Source of the DNA: a virus
DNA length: 36,445 nucleotides
Reading direction: 5' to 3' (one strand)
Virus record (IMG/VR): IMGVR_UViG_3300021197_001846
Span: 1 to 36,445 of that record
The translations under genes were made by a program, and so were the position numbers. The notes under the pieces were generated by a model that made no database searches, was not told where the DNA came from, and saw nothing but the letters and a program-made list of their open reading frames with translations. Each line of letters starts with the position of its first letter. Within the stretch, counting starts at the first letter, position 1. Shown one piece after another: positions 9,208 to 25,827 of this stretch.

Positions 9208-9981
9208 TTAGTAATAGTCTCCATAGACGTCATTATCATTAGCGTCCATATCGTAAACATCATTCTTAGAGTCTTCATCTACATCATATACATATGACTT
9301 AGGATCAGATACATCAGCACTAAGCATCTGTTGAATATTAGAACTAAGAACACCGAACTGTGAGTCATCATAGACTTGCTCATTAGCACACTCTTCAGGA
9401 GCATTAGGCTCAAAGGAGTTTTCGTAGCGCTTAGCACGTACTCTATAGACATAATGACCAAGCAAAGGGTTGATGGAGCTTACATCTTCTTCTCTACGCT
9501 CTGTAATCTCATATACATTAGCGCATCGACCTCCAGGACGATCACAACCCATACCAACTACTTCAATAAGGTCACCTGACTTAGGTTCAGCATCATCAAT
9601 AGAAGCATAAGCTTCATTAGAGCTCATCTGTCTTTGGAAAGTATCAATGTGAACATAGCCAGTAAACTCATCACCTGGATCGAATCCAAATTGCGATAGA
9701 GCTAAAGCCTCTTGTGATAGTTCTACATACATTTGCATACCAGAAGCAGCAGAATAGATTGCTGTTGGATGCTCTCCATAAAGTAAGTTAGCTTTAGTTA
9801 AGTCAAACGGCTTAACATAGTAGTTAATCTCTACACCAAAGTTATTAATTAGGTCATTATATGCCATATCAAAGACAAGCTTCTCTGCTTGCTGATTATC
9901 GGCATTCATAAATTGACCGCATGGAGCTGAAGCAGCTGCCATGATGTCTTCCGGCTTACAATTTACATCTCCACAACCCAT
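9208..9981 (-). CDS. Virion structural protein, possibly neck (gp14-like)
   Basis: 257 aa; T4 neck protein gp14 is 256 aa. FGVEINYYVKPFDLTKANLLY (about 49-69), a middle barrel-like region (SGDLIEVVGMGCD) and HYVYRVRAKRYENSFEPNAP near 186-205 give the order of elements I would expect in gp14-like neck proteins, but no single motif settles it. There are six or more Cys (two near the start in CGDVNC, then CDRPGGRC). The tail of about 50 residues is very acidic and Tyr-rich (DVYDMDANDNDVYGDYY). The start overlaps the upstream stop (TAATG), so it is coupled to the 9981-10319 gene and follows its late promoter. Confidence 0.45.
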   Translation of the reverse strand: MGCGDVNCKPEDIMAAASAPCGQFMNADNQQAEKLVFDMAYNDLINNFGVEINYYVKPFDLTKANLLYGEHPTAIYSAASGMQMYVELSQEALALSQFGFDPGDEFTGYVHIDTFQRQMSSNEAYASIDDAEPKSGDLIEVVGMGCDRPGGRCANVYEITERREEDVSSINPLLGHYVYRVRAKRYENSFEPNAPEECANEQVYDDSQFGVLSSNIQQMLSADVSDPKSYVYDVDEDSKNDVYDMDANDNDVYGDYY

Positions 9982-10319
9982 TACTCAGCCTTTCTTTGAA
10001 TCTTACCTGCAGGGCGACCTTCTTCATCCTCGAACATTACAATCTCAACATCAGAGTTACCGATGCCGTTTGTTTCTCCTGGCTTAAACTCCATACCGTA
10101 CATCTGAAGAGCACTAATAAGAGGCTGACCTGCTAGAGTAATAGGTGCACCATTATGCATACAGTTTCTAACATGAGGGCATTTATGCTTATACTCTTTG
10201 CGTAGTAGATTCTCATGCTTACGACCGGTTCTCATGATGCTCTTACCACCTTGCTTAACGGAAACAGCATTAGAATTCATCATGTTATCACCATTGTAAT
10301 ACTCTCGGAATGTCTGCAT
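9981..10319 (-). CDS. Hypothetical late protein with Cys/His cluster
   Basis: 112 aa from ATG 10319. A longer reading to 10364 is rejected because it would run through the late box. The N-terminus MQTFREYYNGDN resembles the short aromatic N-termini of other late proteins here (MKTFKEFF at 28132). The central HKCPHVRNCMH has two Cys and three His and could bind a metal. SDVEIVMFEDEEGRPAGKI near the end looks like a beta hairpin. I recognise no family. It is the first gene of a two-gene late unit with the possible neck protein, so a head or neck role is plausible. Confidence 0.6.
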   Translation of the reverse strand: MQTFREYYNGDNMMNSNAVSVKQGGKSIMRTGRKHENLLRKEYKHKCPHVRNCMHNGAPITLAGQPLISALQMYGMEFKPGETNGIGNSDVEIVMFEDEEGRPAGKIQRKAE

Positions 10320-10324
10320 ATATA

Positions 10325-10332
10325 TATTTATG
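10325..10332 (-). promoter_or_regulatory. Late promoter box CATAAATA
   Basis: Minus strand CATAAATA, TATAT, ATG 10319 (5-nt gap). It lies just downstream of the terminator of the preceding minus-strand gene, so this is an independent unit. Confidence 0.65.
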
Positions 10333-10350
10333 CCCTTTAGTTCGGAATAC

Positions 10351-10383
10351 AAAAAAAGACTCATGGTTTCCCATGAGTCTTTG
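10351..10383 (-). terminator. Rho-independent terminator
   Basis: On the minus strand AAGACTCATGG, GAAA loop, CCATGAGTCTT, then a T run: an 11-bp perfect stem. It ends the acidic-protein gene at 10402. Confidence 0.85.
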
Positions 10384-10401: not shown

Positions 10402-10944
10402 TTAACCTGCTTTAACTTCTTTGTTCTTAGGAGTAACTTTAGTAGTTGGAGCTTCAAGCTTCGCGTTAACCTTTTGGTCACCTACGTGCTTATCACCAAG
10501 CTTGGACTGATCAGCGGACTTACCACCGTCAGCAGTACCTTTGCCTTCACCACCGAGACCTTCTGGAGAGCCAACTTTGTTGTTCTCACCCATGTCAACA
10601 TGTGTAGTGTGTGCTTTGTACTCACCTTCGTTATCTTCTTCAGCGTGCTCTTCGTCACCGTGAACGGCGCAAGAACCATCTTCTTCAGCGTCAGCGTCTT
10701 CGTCAGTTTCTTCTTCACCCATTGCAGCTTGAAGAAGGTCGCAAAGTGTCTTTGCAAGCTCTTTATCAAGAGTAACGGTTACTTCACCTTCTTCGCTAGC
10801 ATCGTCGTCGCCTTCTTCGCCGAGTTCAGCGTCAGGAGTTGCGTCTTCGATACCAAGAGCGTTAAGGTCGTCTTGTTCCTCCATACCAAAGTCTTCGGAA
10901 ATAACTTTAGCAAAGAGTTCATCAAATGCGGATTTTTTGGCCAT
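10402..10944 (-). CDS. In-frame internal isoform of the acidic protein (predicted)
   Basis: 180 aa from ATG 10944, sharing frame and stop with the 282-aa gene. The minus strand reads AAGGAGG, then CATAAATA, ACTAT, ATG. Box, 5-nt spacing and the MAKK start all match independent late genes in the window. A short protein identical to the C-terminal two thirds is therefore predicted, comparable to lambda Nu3 nested within gene C. The product has not been shown; the evidence is only sequence layout. Confidence 0.45.
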   Translation of the reverse strand: MAKKSAFDELFAKVISEDFGMEEQDDLNALGIEDATPDAELGEEGDDDASEEGEVTVTLDKELAKTLCDLLQAAMGEEETDEDADAEEDGSCAVHGDEEHAEEDNEGEYKAHTTHVDMGENNKVGSPEGLGGEGKGTADGGKSADQSKLGDKHVGDQKVNAKLEAPTTKVTPKNKEVKAG

Positions 10945-11250
10945 ATAGTTATTTATGCCTCCTTGTGCATCTTTCAATGCGTTTTCTTCATCTTCTTCAG
11001 AAATAGTTACTTCTTCAGTGGTCTCTTCATCCTCTTCTTTTACTTCTTGAACTTCATTAGCTGTAGCACAATCAACTTCTTTAGGAGCTTCACAGTCTAC
11101 ATCACAGTCGCCACCATCTTCAAGAGGAGCTTCACCTACAGTCATGTCTTTATCACCAACTGTCATATCATTCTTCTCAGAAACTACAACCTCTTCACCG
11201 AGCTTGCTATAAACGTCACCAAGATCTTTAAGGTCTTTTTTCTTAGCCAT
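10402..11250 (-). CDS. Very acidic protein, candidate prohead core/scaffold, with internal start
   Basis: 282 aa, dominated by Glu, Asp, Gly and Lys. The N-terminus is MAKKKDLKDLGDVYSKLGEE. At residue 103 the frame contains a second N-terminus-like sequence, MAKKSAFDELFAKVISEDFG, preceded by its own late box. The rest alternates acidic runs with one ordered-looking helix (TVTLDKELAKTLCDLLQAAM, about 158-177) and ends in a Lys-rich tail (TTKVTPKNKEVKAG). Such a composition fits a scaffold, a head core or a disordered virion protein; no homology is certain. A perfect TATAAATA lies 5 nt before the ATG, and a strong terminator follows. It is divergent from the terminase. Confidence 0.6.
   Translation of the reverse strand: MAKKKDLKDLGDVYSKLGEEVVVSEKNDMTVGDKDMTVGEAPLEDGGDCDVDCEAPKEVDCATANEVQEVKEEDEETTEEVTISEEDEENALKDAQGGINNYMAKKSAFDELFAKVISEDFGMEEQDDLNALGIEDATPDAELGEEGDDDASEEGEVTVTLDKELAKTLCDLLQAAMGEEETDEDADAEEDGSCAVHGDEEHAEEDNEGEYKAHTTHVDMGENNKVGSPEGLGGEGKGTADGGKSADQSKLGDKHVGDQKVNAKLEAPTTKVTPKNKEVKAG
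10950..10957 (-). promoter_or_regulatory. Internal late promoter box CATAAATA
   Basis: Minus strand CATAAATA inside the acidic-protein gene, 5 nt before the in-frame ATG at 10944. Confidence 0.5.
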
Positions 11251-11328: not shown

Positions 11329-13032
11329 ATGGCTGATAAAAACGATGGTAGTTACTATATGGGTAACGAGAACTTACCTAACAGAAACTGGAAAGGTGAG
11401 TATACTCCGGAGAAGATAGCTGATCTTAAGAAGGCAAAGAAGAATATTCTATACTTTGCTGAGAACTTCTTCTATATTGTTAGTTTGGATCATGGTAAGC
11501 AGAAGATTAAGCTTTACCCGGCACAGAAGAGAGCATTAAGAAACATGCGTGATAATAGATTCTATATTCTATTAGCTTCTCGTCAGATTGGTAAGTCTAC
11601 TCTTATGACAATCTACCTTCTATGGCAAGCATGCTTCCAGAAAGATCAGCGCATCCTTCTTGTAGCGAACACAGAAGCTACTGCTATTGAGATCTTCTCT
11701 CGTGTTAGAATGGCTTATGAGGAACTTCCTAACTGGCTTAAGCCCCCTGTAAAAGAGTATGCTAAGACATCTATGACTCTTGAGAATGGATCTCGTATTG
11801 GTATTACAACTACAACCGGTACAGCTGCTCGTGGTCAGTCCGTTAACTGTCTTGTTATTGATGAGATGGCTTTCATTGAGAACCATTTGGTTGATGAGTT
11901 CTGGAAGTCAGTCTATCCTATTATCTCCTCATCTAAGAAATCTAAAGCATTCATTTGTTCTACTGCTAATGGTACACAGAACCTCTTCTATAAGATTTAT
12001 AATGAGGCAGAGACTAATCCTGATAGTGCTTGGGACTGTGGTAAGATTATGTGGAATGAGGTTCCTGGTCGTGATGAAAAATGGGCTGCTGATACTAGAG
12101 CATCTATTGGTTCGGAAGAGGCTTGGCGACAGGAGTTCTGCTGTGAGTGGATTAACTCTGGTGAGTCTTCTCTTGATGATGAGCTCTATGAGAAGATGGA
12201 AAAGACTATATGTGATCCTAAAGTAGTGCTTGATGATGGTTGCTATAAGATTTGGGAAGAGGCTGACTCATCTAGAATTTATGCTGCTGGTGTTGATACA
12301 GCTGAAGGTGTCGGAAAGGATAGCTCTGTAGTTCAGGTATTGGATGTAACAGATCCTGCTGAAGTTAGACAGGTAGCAGTATATAAGAATAATAAAATCT
12401 CTCCGCTTGAGTTTAGTAATAAGGTTCATCAGATACTTCGTAACTATGGCTCGCCTCTAGCTCTTATTGAGCGTAACAATTGCGGTGCACAAGTAGTAGA
12501 TAGATTGCTACATGATATGGGCTATCCTAAACTTGTTAGTTATGGTAATGCTAAAGCACATCGTAAGAATAGAATGTATGGTATGATTGCTCATACTAAT
12601 ACTAAGCATAAAGGTATCATGAACATGCGCTATTGGATGAATGATCTACACTCTATTGTTATGCGTGACCAAGACACCTTAGATGAGTTTAGAGACTTTG
12701 TTCGTTATCCTAATGGTACATGGAAAGCTCAGAAAGGTAAGCATGATGATATGGTCATGGCTATCATGTATGCATATTATGTTCTTGATAATGATATTGC
12801 TGAGCAGTACTTTGAGATCATTGAGAAAGATGATACAGGTAGACCTAAGATTATTGAGCCTATGGACTTTGGTTTGCAGCTCTTTGAAGACCCGACATCC
12901 ATTTATAATAATGAGAATATGGGCGGTGGTAGTCCTGATCTTAATCCTGTCTATTGGGGTATGAGTGATGGTAATGAAGAGATGGGTGATGATTATTATG
13001 ACCTAATTGATGCTGGATTCACTCCACTATAG
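11329..13032 (+). CDS. 17: Terminase large subunit (gp17-like)
   Basis: 567 aa; T4 gp17 is 610. It is the ATPase-nuclease motor that packages DNA into proheads. Walker A is ASRQIGKST (83-91), Walker B CLVIDE (174-179) with catalytic Glu179, and the coupling motif is STANG (211-215). The C-terminal RNase H-like nuclease has its acidic residues at GVDTAEG (Asp323), ALIERNN (Glu381) and KHDDMVMA (Asp473/474), matching the three metal-binding acids of gp17. Both domains look intact. It opens the plus-strand late block behind its own late box, and the next gene's box overlaps just beyond its stop. Confidence 0.97.
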   Translation: MADKNDGSYYMGNENLPNRNWKGEYTPEKIADLKKAKKNILYFAENFFYIVSLDHGKQKIKLYPAQKRALRNMRDNRFYILLASRQIGKSTLMTIYLLWQACFQKDQRILLVANTEATAIEIFSRVRMAYEELPNWLKPPVKEYAKTSMTLENGSRIGITTTTGTAARGQSVNCLVIDEMAFIENHLVDEFWKSVYPIISSSKKSKAFICSTANGTQNLFYKIYNEAETNPDSAWDCGKIMWNEVPGRDEKWAADTRASIGSEEAWRQEFCCEWINSGESSLDDELYEKMEKTICDPKVVLDDGCYKIWEEADSSRIYAAGVDTAEGVGKDSSVVQVLDVTDPAEVRQVAVYKNNKISPLEFSNKVHQILRNYGSPLALIERNNCGAQVVDRLLHDMGYPKLVSYGNAKAHRKNRMYGMIAHTNTKHKGIMNMRYWMNDLHSIVMRDQDTLDEFRDFVRYPNGTWKAQKGKHDDMVMAIMYAYYVLDNDIAEQYFEIIEKDDTGRPKIIEPMDFGLQLFEDPTSIYNNENMGGGSPDLNPVYWGMSDGNEEMGDDYYDLIDAGFTPL

Positions 13033-13040
13033 ATTAAATA
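13033..13040 (+). promoter_or_regulatory. Late promoter box ATTAAATA
   Basis: ATTAAATA beginning at the base after the terminase stop, then AGTAT and ATG 13046 (5-nt gap). It decides the start of the next gene. Confidence 0.65.
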
Positions 13041-13045
13041 AGTAT

Positions 13046-13618
13046 ATGGCTGCTAATACCAACAATCAATCCTTCCTTAATAAGAGTAGAGCAGATAAGT
13101 TTAAGCTTGTCTTCTCTCTACCTCCTGCATTGAGAGAGATTGACTCTAAGAATAGTAGAAGTACTTTTAATGTTAATCAGAATGCTATGCAGTTCTCTGT
13201 ATATGGTTCTGTTGTACCTCAGATTACTGTACCGGCAATTGAGATTGGCTATGGTGGTTCTAATCTATTTAACTCTTCACATGCTAAGGCTCCATACGAT
13301 CCTGTTACAGTAGACTTTACTATTGATAATGGATACAATAACTACTGGGTAGTTTATAAGTGGCTTGATCTTATGCATGATGAGAAGGAAGGTGTTTTAG
13401 ATGCTAGTAATATTGTTACTGATGAAGCATTTAGTCAGTATCAAACTGATATGACTCTATATGGCTTGGATGAATATAATAAAGAACGTATTAAATTTAC
13501 GTATACAAAAGCCTTTCCAATTTCTGTAGGTGCAATTAATTACAGCTATAGAGATGAAGACGAGATTGCAAGTTCTCTGTCATTTGTCTACTCTCAAATA
13601 CATACAGAATTATTGTAG
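13046..13618 (+). CDS. Tail-tube-like structural protein
   Basis: 190 aa from ATG 13046; an upstream in-frame ATG at 13007 is rejected because it overlaps the terminase and the late box. The sequence DKFKLVFSLPPALREI, then VPQITVPAIEIGYGGSN, then PVTVDFTIDNGYNNYWVVYKW has the strand order of phage tail-tube folds. The last part, KFTYTKAFPISVGAINYSY, matches the closing strands. It sits between terminase and sheath, where T4 has no gene. It may be the tube or a tube terminator or initiator; the 16843 gene looks more like gp19 itself. Confidence 0.6.
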   Translation: MAANTNNQSFLNKSRADKFKLVFSLPPALREIDSKNSRSTFNVNQNAMQFSVYGSVVPQITVPAIEIGYGGSNLFNSSHAKAPYDPVTVDFTIDNGYNNYWVVYKWLDLMHDEKEGVLDASNIVTDEAFSQYQTDMTLYGLDEYNKERIKFTYTKAFPISVGAINYSYRDEDEIASSLSFVYSQIHTELL

Positions 13619-13657: not shown

Positions 13658-15991
13658 ATGGCTAAACGTACAATTCAAAGCCCTGGAGTTGAGATTCGTG
13701 AGAGTGACTTATCACTACGCACTGCTCAAACCGGGACTACCACTTATGTAGCTGGTTTTGCGTCTGAAGGACCTACTGATGAGGTTGTCGGGCTTGGAAG
13801 TATTTCTGAGTTTGAACAAATCTATGGTACTCCAAAGACAGCAGCCGAACGCTACTTCTATCACACTACACGTGCTACACTAAACTCTTCAGGTTCAGTT
13901 CTTGTTAACCGCTTGCCTTATGGTGCAAATAACGGACAAGGCTTCGGTTCTAAGATTAGTGTATTGGCATACCCTGCTATTGTTTGGGATCGCACTGCAG
14001 CTGCTATTACTACAGATGCTACTAAATCAGAAGCAACTTACCTTCTAGGTGCACCTACTCAGTTCGAAATGACTGATGCAGAGTACATGCAGTATAAAAA
14101 CGGTTCATTATTCGAACAGAGTGAAAGCTTGAGTGCTTCATTCGATGCTCTTTCCTCTTTGGGTAGCGCTGCTCTTGTTGTTGTTAACAAAGGACAGACT
14201 GTTATTGATGGTCAGTTCAATGGTTACTATGTTGGTGTTTCTGATAACACTAACCTTAACCCAGCAACAGACTTCGACGCTATCGTTAATGTTAAGACAG
14301 CAACAGCTGCTCCAGCTAATACTGGTCTTTCTACTTTCACAGATGTTCCTGCTTCCCGCTTCGAGTTCGCTCTTACAGCTACTCCAGAGTTTGGTACTAA
14401 CCCTGCTACTAATTCCGTTTCACAAGTTATGGAAGATCGTATTACTGGTTATGACACATCTGATACAGAGTTTGACGATACATTGAACATTGGTGTATTT
14501 AAACTTCGTCAGTCAGTATTCTCTAAGGCAGCTAACAAGCTTGATTATCTTCTTGAAGAAGGTTATAATGGCTCAATTGGTCAGTACCGTCAGCGTAATG
14601 CTGAGAATGGTGGTGCACCAGTTAACTTCTCACTTGATACTGTAAACGATCAATCACGTAACATTGATATTGTTGTTAACCCTTTCATTGCTGATGCTCT
14701 TGACGGTGTACAGCTTAATGCAGACGGTACACCAAAGAAGAAGATTCGTGTTTATACAGAAGCTCTTAAATCAGGTCTTCAAGGTGGTTCAATCTCACCT
14801 GCTGCTGCTGGTCTTCCAGTTGACTTCTTTACAACTAACTTCGCTGATGAGGTTGCTAAAGCTGATAGCCTTCTTCCACTTGGTTCTTATGGTGAAGTAA
14901 ATCTCTCTACAAAAGAGATTGGTTCTATTCCATTGAAACTTGATCGTGCTCTCGATCGTGTTCGTAACGATCGTAAGTTTGATATCGACTTGATTGCTGA
15001 AGGTGGTCTTGGTACTATTCACACTTACATGGAGACAGCAAATGCTACTCTTAGTGCTCGTGGTTTTGATGACACACGTACAACTGACGCTATCGAAGCT
15101 CTTCGTACATCTGGTGACATTGATGCTACCGGTGAAGAGGCTCGCACAGCTTATACAACAGTATTCAACCGCTTTGCAACATTTGCAGGTCCTGTTAAGG
15201 ATGGTGGTCGTGGTGATATTCTTTTCATTGCTGATCCAATCCGTCAGATTCTTGTAGCTGGTAAGTCACAGAAGGTTCAGAAAGATCCTACTAAGAACTT
15301 CTACACAGACATTTACTGGGCAATGCGCCACCAGTTTGAACTTGCTAATACTTCTTATGCAACAGTATACGCTAACTGGATGAAGGTATATGATAACTAC
15401 ACCGGCCTTTACTGCTATGTTCCATCTTCTGGATTTGCTTCCGCTAAGATGGCTTCTACAGATGCTCAGATCGGACCATGGGGTGCACCTGCTGGTTTCA
15501 ATCGTGGTGTTATTACTGATGCAGATGATATTGCAATCAGCCCTAACCAACGTCAGCGTGATGACCTTTACACTGTTAACCTTAACCCTATTGCAAACTT
15601 TGCTGATCAGGGTAATGTATTCTTCGGTCAAAAGACTCTCCTTAAGAAGCCAAGTGCATTCGACCGTATTAACGTTCGTCGTACTTTCCTCTACCTTGAG
15701 AAGATCACTAAGAAGACTATGCAGTTCTTCTTGTTCGAGAACAACACATTGTTCACACGTACAAGAGTTGCTAATACTTTGACACCATTCTTTGAGCGTG
15801 TTAAAGCTGCTGATGGTCTTCATGACTTCATGATTGTTTGCGATGAGCGTAACAATACAGGTGAGGTTGTTGATCAGAATGAGCTTGTTGTTGACATCTA
15901 CTTGAAGCCAGTACGTACTGCTGAATTCATCCTTGTTAACTTCTATGCTACTCGCACTGATACAAACTTCGAAGAGCTTTTGGGCAACTAA
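13658..15991 (+). CDS. 18: Tail sheath protein (gp18-like)
   Basis: 777 aa, longer than T4 gp18 (659). The N-terminus SPGVEIRESDLS followed by TYVAGFASEGPTDEVV (about 30-45) is the standard sheath beginning. The C-terminal part KKPSAFDRINVRRTFLYLEK and the final FILVNFYATRTDTNFEELL are the conserved sheath core that interlocks subunits. The region around residues 120-400 has no obvious conserved motif and probably forms the surface-exposed inserted domains that vary between phages. The protein makes the contractile outer tail. A strong terminator follows, so this gene with its own late box may be a single-gene unit, fitting very high expression. Confidence 0.93.
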   Translation: MAKRTIQSPGVEIRESDLSLRTAQTGTTTYVAGFASEGPTDEVVGLGSISEFEQIYGTPKTAAERYFYHTTRATLNSSGSVLVNRLPYGANNGQGFGSKISVLAYPAIVWDRTAAAITTDATKSEATYLLGAPTQFEMTDAEYMQYKNGSLFEQSESLSASFDALSSLGSAALVVVNKGQTVIDGQFNGYYVGVSDNTNLNPATDFDAIVNVKTATAAPANTGLSTFTDVPASRFEFALTATPEFGTNPATNSVSQVMEDRITGYDTSDTEFDDTLNIGVFKLRQSVFSKAANKLDYLLEEGYNGSIGQYRQRNAENGGAPVNFSLDTVNDQSRNIDIVVNPFIADALDGVQLNADGTPKKKIRVYTEALKSGLQGGSISPAAAGLPVDFFTTNFADEVAKADSLLPLGSYGEVNLSTKEIGSIPLKLDRALDRVRNDRKFDIDLIAEGGLGTIHTYMETANATLSARGFDDTRTTDAIEALRTSGDIDATGEEARTAYTTVFNRFATFAGPVKDGGRGDILFIADPIRQILVAGKSQKVQKDPTKNFYTDIYWAMRHQFELANTSYATVYANWMKVYDNYTGLYCYVPSSGFASAKMASTDAQIGPWGAPAGFNRGVITDADDIAISPNQRQRDDLYTVNLNPIANFADQGNVFFGQKTLLKKPSAFDRINVRRTFLYLEKITKKTMQFFLFENNTLFTRTRVANTLTPFFERVKAADGLHDFMIVCDERNNTGEVVDQNELVVDIYLKPVRTAEFILVNFYATRTDTNFEELLGN

Positions 15992-16010: not shown

Positions 16011-16043
16011 AAAGAGGGGGTCTGCGGACCTCCTCTTTTTTTT
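16011..16043 (+). terminator. Rho-independent terminator
   Basis: AAGAGGGGGTC, TGCG loop, GACCTCCTCTT, then T run: an 11-bp stem with one G-T pair. The loop is of the UNCG type. It follows the sheath gene. Confidence 0.85.
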
Positions 16044-16064
16044 GTTGAAAAGTAGCCTGGTTGA

Positions 16065-16072
16065 CATAAATA
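16065..16072 (+). promoter_or_regulatory. Late promoter box CATAAATA
   Basis: CATAAATA, ATGTT, ATG 16078 (5-nt gap). Confidence 0.65.
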
Positions 16073-16077
16073 ATGTT

Positions 16078-16764
16078 ATGGCACATAGTAATTACGCTGA
16101 AGACAGAGACCTTATGCAGGAAGCTTATAGCTCTGTTCAAGGTACTATTCCACCAACACAAAGTACAGCACCAGCACGTATGCTTAATGAATCTGGTTGC
16201 GCTTCTCACTCCGATGAAGAGAAGATCACTGAGATTGAGCTTGGTGGTGATCTTTATGAAGTTGGTGGACCAGATCCATCTAACGAGAGTGAGCTTATCA
16301 TCTCTATTGAAAAACATTCTAATGGTTACATGATCACAACTGGTGAATTTAGTTCTCCAGAAGACTTTGTAACAAAAGGTCCAGACAGTGCAGTTGAAGC
16401 TGGTGGATATGCCCTTTCTCTTGATGGTAAGCTTATGGAAGAGGATGATCTTGAAGATGGCTTAGGTCATGTTGAAGATGCTGAAGATAATGAAGGTGAA
16501 TCTGGATTTACTAGCGCACAAAAAGAAGAATTGGAAGATATTGTACATGCCGTTCTTAATAAGCGTGAGCATGAAGAGCGGGTCGCTAGCCACGAAGATG
16601 CTGAAGGTGAGCATGCTGGTTATAGTGTAGGTGATATGATTGACGGCCATGATGGTGAAGAGATTGTTACAGATGTAGATGTAGATGGTACTATCTTTAC
16701 TAGAGAGTTAGGTGCCGGCGGTAATAAATATACTCCAGAAGAAATTAACAATCTTCCAAGTTAG
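16078..16764 (+). CDS. Acidic hypothetical late protein
   Basis: 228 aa from ATG 16078; an in-frame ATG at 16042 is rejected because it lies between terminator and late box. The N-terminus MAHSNYAEDRDLMQEAYSSV is followed by a beta-like region (SELIISIEKHSNGYMITTGE, about 77-96) and a very acidic second half with a helix (TSAQKEELEDIVHAVLNKRE). Glu and Asp dominate, as in the protein at 10402. Placed between sheath and tube and flanked by strong terminators, it is expressed alone. It could be an assembly factor or minor virion protein; I recognise no family. Confidence 0.6.
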   Translation: MAHSNYAEDRDLMQEAYSSVQGTIPPTQSTAPARMLNESGCASHSDEEKITEIELGGDLYEVGGPDPSNESELIISIEKHSNGYMITTGEFSSPEDFVTKGPDSAVEAGGYALSLDGKLMEEDDLEDGLGHVEDAEDNEGESGFTSAQKEELEDIVHAVLNKREHEERVASHEDAEGEHAGYSVGDMIDGHDGEEIVTDVDVDGTIFTRELGAGGNKYTPEEINNLPS

Positions 16765-22896: not shown

Positions 22897-25287
22897 ATGG
22901 TAGTATACGGAAATAATCTTCATGAGAAGTTGCAGGGGCTTGCTATAAGTAGAGATTACTTAAAGTATAATACTCCTTTCTGTGACCTTGTTGATGCCCC
23001 TGAATGGCAGGTTGATATCAATCTTGCCCTAGACTTTAATAGTGCAATCAATGGTAATGAAGATGCTGCTACTAAGTTTGTACAGGACCTTACTCTCAAC
23101 TCCAGTGTATTAGACTCTTCAACAATTGAATTCTACATTCATAAGATAACTTATAACCCAATCTTCTCTTCTGCTATTAAAGAGATGAGAATTAGATGGG
23201 ATAACCTCGATGGTATTGATGATGATTTTCAAAAGACTCTTAAAGATGCTCTTAAGGATTGCTTAAACTCTCCTTGTAATTTATTCCAAGAGACGTCTGA
23301 TAGTATGGGTCGTATGGCTCAGTCAGCTTCTACTAAGACGTCAGATAATTCTATGGGCTCTTTAGTATTTAGAGAAGGTAGTACAGCTGGTCAAGGTGAT
23401 GATGTAGATAATAATCCTTCAACATCTATCTCTAATATGATTGATGGTATGGATCAGACCATTACTAATAAGATACCAGGTATCTTTAAGGATGCTTTCA
23501 CAGAGGTAGTAGCTATAGCTAATAAGTCATTTGAAAATACTCAAGATGTATTAGCTGGTAAGAAGAACTTAGAGGACTTTGCAACTCAAGCACAACAAGG
23601 TAAATCATTTAGAGATCCAGCTAAATCATTTAGATATAGTCCTGATGTTAAATCTTATTTTGATTACTCAGCTGCTTCTTCTAATGTATTAGCTAAGATC
23701 AAAGAGGATATTGGTGGTTGCTTTAATAGATTTGAGTTTAAATATAGATATAATCCTTATGAGAATAACATGTCTCGTCCTATTGGTACAAAAGTAAGTG
23801 CTGTTAATGGTAAGAGGTATGATTCTAATGCTACTGGTACTCCTGATAGATCAGGTCAATCCAATAGTTATAAATTAGATAAACAGACCACTACAAGTAA
23901 TGCTGGAGACAATCTTAGATCTAACACTATTACATTAGGTAAGGGTATATCCTCCGGTGACGTTAAAGTATCTAAGTCATATATTCTTGATGGAAAGACA
24001 GCATCTAACAGACAGAACTACTCTGTATTCTCTTCTCTTATTGATGAGAAGACAAAGACCTTATGGTATGAGTCGTATAATGCTACTCCTGATGATGAGT
24101 TAACTCTTCAAGGTGTTGCTAATGTTGGTCAGAACTACCGTATTGGTACATCCACATTTGGTCGTGATAAAGACTTTATTAAACGCGCTCTCAATAATGA
24201 AGAGATATCACTACAAGAGAAACAAAAGTATGGTACTACCACTCAACCTGGTAACTACGCTGCACAATTTAAGCATCAGCTTGATGATGAAGGTATGGAG
24301 ACTCTCTTCAATACACCGGAGACTAATATTGTTAATGATGGTGTTGCTATTAGTAAAGCTCTATTCAGAGAGTTTGTAAATGATCCATCTATTGGGGTAG
24401 GTAGCTCTACCTATAAAGGCCCACAAATAGCTAATGAGTTCTTTGTTGCAGCAAGACCTGCTAAAGCATCAAAAGGAAGATCACGTGAGTTTAAGTATTA
24501 TAAGGTTATCGATAGTAATCAGCAAGACAAGCTTAACGTTGACTTTACTGTTGGTGCTTGGAGTCACTTTCTTGAGTCATACGGTTATGGTGAGCTAACT
24601 GCTGCTTCTTCAGGTGCTGCTAGAAGACGTCCTATTGATGATACATCATGGAGTAGGGTGCAGAAGATCTTTACTGAAGATATTGGCGGTCCTATGGAAA
24701 TTAGAATTTGTACTGGACCACTTGAGGATATTAAAGCTGCTATTAACGAAGATACGACAGTTGTAACTGCTGAAGAGACAGAGGATGCATTTGACAAACT
24801 CTTTGGAACTGTGGATGGTGAGGTGCCAGGTGCTTCTACTGCAAATGCTAATGTTGTTTATGAACTTGGTGGTGCAACTCGTAACCAACCTATTCAACCT
24901 AAGCTTGCTAAGATACTTGAACAGGCGAGTGCTGCATTCGATTATAAGATTGTAGTGTTCTCAGGCGGTCAAGATGTAAAGGGACAAGGTACAAGACGAA
25001 CTGGTTCAACTAGACATGATAGAGGTTATGCTGCTGACATTAGAGTATATACACCTGATGGTACTAGATTGAGCTCAGAGAATTCAGCTCATCATGTTAA
25101 GTTAGCTATATTTGCTAAACAATGTAAGATGTTAGGTATGGAAAGCTTCGGTTCAGGTCCAGGCTATATGGGTGGTAATCACCATGTTGACATTGCAATT
25201 AGTGCTGGTCAAGGAACTGCTACTGTATGGGGTGTAGGTGGCAGAAGTGCTAATACACCTAAATGGTTGAGAGACGCTTTCGTTTAA
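22897..25287 (+). CDS. Baseplate protein with C-terminal M15 peptidase domain
   Basis: 796 aa. Residues 1-640 are of unknown fold with long Ser/Asn/Gly-rich linkers (about 130-190 and 300-350) and look like a structural baseplate or hub part. From about 645 an M15 (D-Ala-D-Ala carboxypeptidase/VanY) domain follows: FDYKIVVFSGGQD, then STRHDRGYAAD with zinc ligands His707 and Asp714, and GNHHVDIAIS with zinc ligand His763 and catalytic acid Asp765. The whole zinc site is present. It should cut peptide bonds in peptidoglycan during infection, taking the place of the gp5 lysozyme of T4. The gene follows gp53 by 3 nt and converges with the gene at 25284. Confidence 0.8.
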   Translation: MVVYGNNLHEKLQGLAISRDYLKYNTPFCDLVDAPEWQVDINLALDFNSAINGNEDAATKFVQDLTLNSSVLDSSTIEFYIHKITYNPIFSSAIKEMRIRWDNLDGIDDDFQKTLKDALKDCLNSPCNLFQETSDSMGRMAQSASTKTSDNSMGSLVFREGSTAGQGDDVDNNPSTSISNMIDGMDQTITNKIPGIFKDAFTEVVAIANKSFENTQDVLAGKKNLEDFATQAQQGKSFRDPAKSFRYSPDVKSYFDYSAASSNVLAKIKEDIGGCFNRFEFKYRYNPYENNMSRPIGTKVSAVNGKRYDSNATGTPDRSGQSNSYKLDKQTTTSNAGDNLRSNTITLGKGISSGDVKVSKSYILDGKTASNRQNYSVFSSLIDEKTKTLWYESYNATPDDELTLQGVANVGQNYRIGTSTFGRDKDFIKRALNNEEISLQEKQKYGTTTQPGNYAAQFKHQLDDEGMETLFNTPETNIVNDGVAISKALFREFVNDPSIGVGSSTYKGPQIANEFFVAARPAKASKGRSREFKYYKVIDSNQQDKLNVDFTVGAWSHFLESYGYGELTAASSGAARRRPIDDTSWSRVQKIFTEDIGGPMEIRICTGPLEDIKAAINEDTTVVTAEETEDAFDKLFGTVDGEVPGASTANANVVYELGGATRNQPIQPKLAKILEQASAAFDYKIVVFSGGQDVKGQGTRRTGSTRHDRGYAADIRVYTPDGTRLSSENSAHHVKLAIFAKQCKMLGMESFGSGPGYMGGNHHVDIAISAGQGTATVWGVGGRSANTPKWLRDAFV

Positions 25288-25787
25288 ATATCAATAACGT
25301 CTTCACCCTTTTTATCAGCTTCTGGCTCAGGAGCCTTCAACATGGCCTCCATAAGCTCTTCACGAGACATTACAAGCTTTGTCTGATTATCAGCTAGGTT
25401 GAGTTGCTTCTTAGAGTCAATATCCATCTCCTTGAGCTCTTTACGTGCTTCATTATTAGCTTTGTTAGCATGAATCTTCTGCATTGTCTCAATTGAGCTA
25501 TTTGCAGATCTCATAAGCTCAGCCAAGGAAGCAACATCTCTGTTCTCTGGTGCAGATGAGATATAGTCTTTAACATTATCAACAGCATCTAGAGTAGTAT
25601 CAATAAGCTTAGCAGTCTTCTTAATAAGATACTCTTCAAGCTCTTCAACTTCAGGAATCTCTTCTTTAGACTTCTCTTGCCTAGTAATGGAGTGATGTTG
25701 TGTAGTCAATTGAGATAGGATGTCATCAACTGCACCATCAACTTCATTACCTCCATTAGGGTCAAATGCTGGATCATACTTTTCCAT
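25284..25787 (-). CDS. Possible terminase small subunit (gp16-like)
   Basis: 167 aa; T4 gp16 is 164. The protein is almost all helical: LEEYLIKKTAKLIDTTLDAV, then NRDVASLAELMRSANSSIE (residues about 83-101) and a helix ending in TKLVMSREELMEAMLKA. A helical core with a coiled coil and a short acidic tail (KKGEDVIDI) is what small terminases of this group look like, but there is no diagnostic motif. A scaffold or other helical assembly protein is possible. The start at 25787 is 5 nt after a late box; ATGs at 25793 and 25820 are less likely. Its stop overlaps that of the M15 gene. Confidence 0.4.
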   Translation of the reverse strand: MEKYDPAFDPNGGNEVDGAVDDILSQLTTQHHSITRQEKSKEEIPEVEELEEYLIKKTAKLIDTTLDAVDNVKDYISSAPENRDVASLAELMRSANSSIETMQKIHANKANNEARKELKEMDIDSKKQLNLADNQTKLVMSREELMEAMLKAPEPEADKKGEDVIDI

Positions 25788-25792
25788 ATACA

Positions 25793-25800
25793 TATTTAAT
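25793..25800 (-). promoter_or_regulatory. Late promoter box ATTAAATA
   Basis: Minus strand ATTAAATA, TGTAT, ATG 25787 (5-nt gap). Confidence 0.6.
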
Positions 25801-25827
25801 CTACAAACATTACTTTGCAACCTTTAG

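Follow-up and report, generated by a model that had tools for sequence, protein, structure and literature searches.

A probable gene nested in frame, under a late-type promoter of its own, within an acidic protein gene of uncultured T4-like phages

The DNA analysed here, referred to as the window, is a viral fragment of 36,445 nucleotides (IMG/VR record IMGVR_UViG_3300021197_001846). Its minus strand carries an ORF for an acidic protein of 282 amino acids. This ORF adjoins the large terminase gene, in relatives too, and is near a head-closure-like gene. The features of the locus are as follows.

10402 to 11250, minus strand: long product, the acidic 282-aa protein, which starts MAKKKDLKDL, contains 30% D+E and is mostly predicted to be disordered.
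11263 to 11256, minus strand: late-type box of the long product, TATAAATA, 5 nt (ATTGT) before the ATG at 11250.
10402 to 10944, minus strand: putative short nested product, which begins at the in-frame ATG at 10944 (MAKKSAFDELFAKVISEDF...) and has 180 codons before its stop.
10957 to 10950, minus strand: internal late-type box, CATAAATA, 5 nt before the ATG at 10944; TAAATA is found here in 74 of 75 relatives.
10949 to 10945, minus strand: 5-nt spacer ACTAT, by which the A of the start codon becomes the predicted +1 (leaderless).
10964 to 10958, minus strand: AAGGAGG, similar to a Shine-Dalgarno (SD) sequence, not conserved and lying within Gln-Gly-Gly codons.
11329 to 13032, plus strand: large terminase, the divergent neighbour, which served as anchor and codon control.

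At the internal site the minus strand reads AAGGAGG-CATAAATA-ACTAT-ATG (10944-10942)-GCC AAA AAA. This confirmed the original prediction that a second MAKK start, 5 nt past a box of its own, is present at 10944 within the 282-aa ORF. The ATG encodes Met residue 103 of the ORF, in the same frame, and 180 amino acids remain.

The arrangement of box and start codon is not confined to this gene. The window contains 43-44 copies of TAAATA, 13 of them followed by an ATG after exactly 5 nt; any other TAAATA-to-ATG spacing within 30 nt gives only 0-2 ATGs each. Against these 13 occurrences of TAAATA-N5-ATG, 300 order-2 Markov sequences averaged 0.66 and never had more than 4. Ten of the 13 mark the start of a gene, two lie antisense and the remaining one is the nested site, and one more gene start in the window has the box with GTG as the start codon. 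The spacing rule picks real starts as the tail sheath (13658, plus strand, MAKRTIQSPGVEIRESDLSLR) and tube-like proteins begin at such sites. It also corrects the starts of two ORFs over-extended by longest-ORF calling, 16042-16764 to 16078 and 13007-13618 to 13046, both on the plus strand. The in-frame sites at 10319 and 25787, both on the minus strand, were considered as nested genes and rejected since they are likely to be the true starts of the over-extended ORFs 9981-10364 and 25284-25820.

On the minus strand at 14488-14501, TAAATACACCAATG lies antisense within the tail sheath gene and recurs in the relatives G004, G005 and G006; it probably arises from a conserved sheath peptide and is not a start. 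Three genes (936 and 1188, minus strand, and 26308, plus strand) begin with TATAAT-N5-ATG (TATAATtaggtATG, TATAATtagttATG) and have GGAAC 5 nt upstream of the hexamer. These are early-type promoters, which may also yield leaderless messages.

Across eight related contigs the forward pattern was found 114 times against 14 for the reversed control, and in a 150-kb relative TAAATA-N5-ATG was found 41 times against one control. The corresponding counts were 10 against 5 for T4 and 2 against 1 for cyanophage S-SCSM2R. The late box of T4 mostly precedes the ATG by 21-28 nt, that of S-SCSM2R by 28 nt. The cultured pelagiphage HTVC008M (NC_020484) has 14 TAAATA-N5-ATG sites against 4 controls, many starting TAAATAG, which is a weak sign of leaderless starts. 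Judging from these sequences, the clade as a whole seems to place its late promoters so that messages begin at the ATG. Among the contigs examined, the site in the 282-aa ORF is the only convincing nested one.

Relatives of the locus were gathered from IMG/VR stepwise, as 6 close relatives, 22 loci, 80 terminase-linked loci and 80 loci obtained via a profile of the short form. Removal of identical stretches from -60 to +90 left 75 distinct loci. TAAATA was found exactly 5 nt before an in-frame internal ATG in 74 of the 75, which amounts to fewer than 74 independent events because the loci are related. Earlier rounds had given conservation of the internal site in 22 loci, in 60 of 61 ORFs and in 54 of 54. 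Given the 13 sites where 0.66 are expected and the retention of the site in 74 of 75 relatives, the internal site is not due to chance. The sole exception, L107, is the most distant relative (L107:3-680) and has its box, TATAAATA, inside the gene 21 nt upstream of the nested ATG, a spacing as in leadered T4 promoters. The nested start lies anywhere from about residue 94 to residue 205 across the relatives, so the linker before it varies freely in length. The first start has a TAAATA-N5 box in 66 of 74 intact relatives while in the other 8 this box is missing and the internal start retains its own. Thus the internal start is the better conserved of the two. The conservation among 75 distinct relatives therefore supports the original prediction of a second gene nested in frame, which has a promoter box to itself and would encode a C-terminal isoform of 180 aa.

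The boxes found, which include TATAAATA, CATAAATA, AATAAATA, ACTAAATA and others, agree with the late consensus of T4 or with variants of it already described. The T4 late box is 8 bp long and begins at -13 relative to the transcript start, thus covering -13 to -6 (PMC2988020). Published T4-type variants have A at -13 or, in the Aeh1 form, a/gC at -13/-12 (PMC2988020), and cyanophages have the late-type box NATAAATA (PMC2984593). With this T4 geometry and a 5-nt spacer, the A of the start codon becomes the +1 position. The mRNA from the internal start is therefore predicted to be leaderless, on the basis of box geometry and with the +1 carried over from T4. The AAGGAGG noted in the original prediction is indeed present, 13 nt from the ATG at 10944, but does not represent a conserved ribosome site. 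The predicted transcript would begin downstream of it, and an SD-like sequence just upstream of the internal ATG was found in only 19 of 75 loci, with no conserved Shine-Dalgarno. Initiation at the internal ATG led by such a sequence was rejected on this count. With +1 on the A of the ATG and AAGGAGG not conserved, a leaderless late transcript is the indicated reading, not an SD-led one.

Conservation of the internal motif might reflect the long protein needing Ile/Leu-Asn-x-x-Met, with the box being incidental. The residues [IL]-N-x-x-M are indeed partly constrained. In a 26-row alignment, Asn100 is conserved in more than 90% of rows and Met103, found in all, is one of 11 invariant columns. 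However, the residues at the site vary (GINNYM, GLNKYM, GLNIFM, SINNFM, SININM) while the hexamer is constant. The internal box types ACTAAATA, CATAAATA, CCTAAATA, TATAAATA and others encode either Ile or Leu, hence it is the DNA that is kept and not the residue. As a codon control, 15 terminase representatives were used, namely the window's own and 14 with 54-87% identity to it. Neither the 32 all-Ile/Leu columns nor the 11 all-Asn columns of these terminases contained a single case with an invariant third base. At the nested site XTA-AAT was found in 14 of 14 divergent representatives with N5 spacing, the third base being A for Ile/Leu and T for Asn throughout, which has p ~3e-8 when calculated from each phage's own codon usage with lineages treated as independent. 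ATA makes up just 11% of the Ile codons in the window, and the internal spacing agrees exactly with that of the other gene starts. The start signal is conserved beyond the protein constraint, as is looked for in an in-frame nested gene, and a purely protein-based origin of the motif is extremely improbable. A relic of the fusion of two once separate genes, in which the second promoter and start were simply left behind, would account for the conservation of both ends, with a highly variable linker between them, and for both parts beginning with a short helix and a late box. The original prediction had offered a recent fusion as an alternative and this was rejected, as the gene is a single ORF throughout a clade whose terminases are 54-99% identical to that of the window. 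None of the 75 relatives encodes the two parts as separate genes. The one deviation, L013 (1929-2975), carries an in-frame linker stop, TAA in place of the GAA of its neighbour L017, with the short frame and its promoter intact; this single contig may represent a natural allele or an assembly error. An ancient fusion is conceivable, yet it leaves the retention of the site unexplained, and a relic would not retain the hexamer at synonymous sites across a clade with terminase identity down to 54%. The relic explanation is accordingly very unlikely.

It might also be supposed that TAAATA-N5-ATG is a translation-initiation element, with promoters located upstream and the AU-rich motif recruiting the ribosome, so that the short protein is made from the long mRNA. 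The tying of the spacing to the ATG, and the occurrence of the motif before genes inside same-strand runs, would be in keeping with this. Against it, the 8-mer matches the T4 late consensus together with the A(-13) variant, the Aeh1 type with C at -12 and the cyanophage box, all cited above. The motif is also present at the first genes of divergent pairs, several of which have sites on opposite strands about 10-25 nt apart. In addition, gp55-like late sigma factor genes are carried by three related contigs, with none in the 36-kb window fragment, and the 21-nt spacing in L107 is what a promoter would allow. A translation element is consequently improbable as the explanation. The reading favoured here, which is very likely to be correct on the evidence of sequence conservation, is that a conserved gene is nested in frame here under a late-type promoter of its own, and hence that one late gene gives two isoforms.

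The proposed sequence of events is then as follows. A T4-type late promoter, TATAAATA, 5 nt before the ATG at 11250 would produce the mRNA of the acidic 282-aa protein, without a leader. Another late promoter, CATAAATA, within the coding sequence and 5 nt before the ATG at 10944 would give a separate leaderless mRNA in the same frame, from which the 180-aa C-terminal protein would be translated. RNA would thus start at the ATG, ribosomes would initiate there and both proteins would be made. Selection would hold the internal hexamer and the Met while leaving the upstream linker free to change.

The function of the protein was approached by homology and structure prediction. The 282-aa protein has no PHROG or Pfam match, and a tblastn search of 50,697 phage records, with this protein and two distant relatives as queries and the low-complexity filter on, gave no match. 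No homologue of the window protein was found in T4, HTVC008M, phiM9 or S-SCSM2R and no detectable homology to T4 gp22, gp67, gp68 or the IPs. Bacterial genome contigs contained no relative of either the 282-aa protein or the terminase, and psbA is absent from seven larger relatives. AlphaFold2 run on 26 sequences gave a low-confidence model (pLDDT 49.7) with helices at 7-19, 85-105, 108-118, 125-131 and 163-176 and the rest disordered. According to this model a short helix, probably amphipathic, is exposed at both starts. All 26 long forms have an [ILV]xE motif between residues 15 and 30, where the background is 19%, although these rows are not independent and Glu is abundant in the protein. 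In the short forms ISE, INE, VNE or VSE is found directly after the helix in about half of the rows.

Internal head proteins of T4 have N-terminal capsid-targeting propeptides of 10-20 residues, which are cleaved after Glu (PMC9026906, PMC5694885). A role in the prohead core or as an internal head protein is suggested because the short N-terminal helix and the [ILV]xE motif after it may be the counterpart of these propeptides. The two differ in that sequence homology is lacking, V is common at the first motif position and, among the short forms, only about half carry the site. As the rows are related and the protein is rich in Glu, this is weak evidence, and the idea of two forms of a prohead-core or internal head protein, with a separate targeting end on each, is put forward tentatively. 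In such a case the second start would give the C-terminal acidic domain an exposed N-terminal targeting helix of its own. N-termini resembling capsid-targeting sequences (MQTFREYYNG, MKTFKEFFTE, MITFKEYLVE, MKSFKKFFEYY, MKDFKSFYVE), as if a common head-targeting tag, were noticed in genes starting at 10319 (minus), 28132 (plus) and 27243 (plus) of the window and at L112:2580 (minus), L119:4884 (minus) and L019:12592 (plus). The C-terminal part of the product of window 27243-28130 matches phrog_7595 (unknown function, E 4e-18) and, weakly and below the cut-off, Pfam DUF5754.

Several known systems resemble the one proposed. The T4 record NC_000866 annotates the gene 17 products gp17' and gp17'' with 'internal transcription and in-frame translation', and lists internal products gp21' and gp26' for genes 21 and 26. 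As in these cases, a T4-type phage would make shorter products in the same frame from one late gene. The protein concerned is a different one, however, and T4 messages have leaders, with a distance from box to ATG of mostly 21-28 nt, whereas here the distance is 5 nt clade-wide. The likeness to the T4 late promoter (gp55/gp33/gp45) lies in the 8-bp TATAAATA-like box, including its A(-13) and a/gC (-13/-12) variants (PMC2988020), and the difference lies in the box abutting the start codon, for which a leaderless mRNA is predicted. The 282-aa ORF also invites comparison with genes outside the T4 group. In phage lambda, the scaffold gene Nu3 is nested in frame within gene C and its product is the C-terminal part of the C protein. 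The present gene is like C/Nu3 in its in-frame nesting and its putative C-terminal product, and the likeness is one of arrangement. To our knowledge, no late promoter of its own has been described for Nu3. A literature search reaching few subscription papers turned up no description of late promoters of this leaderless kind in T4-like phages. As far as could be found, therefore, the apparent clade-wide leaderless design and the conserved internal leaderless promoter would be new, nested late-gene products being already known.

Taken at its broadest, the picture would be of a marine T4-like clade in which many late genes are leaderless through the fusion of promoter and start, and in which one gene uses this to produce a second in-frame protein with a capsid-targeting helix, the acidic domain entering the prohead in two forms. 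This picture as a whole is possible but doubtful. If the nested gene is real, a phage promoter that abuts the start codon has a double function, and a signal so compact fits inside a coding sequence and yields a second protein. Gene finders based on SD sequences would overlook such a gene, and they can place other starts wrongly, in the window for example those at 16078, 10319 and 25787. It would become testable whether T4-type late transcription feeds leaderless translation genome-wide and which hosts permit this, and the alignments would offer a route to nested genes in uncultured phages.
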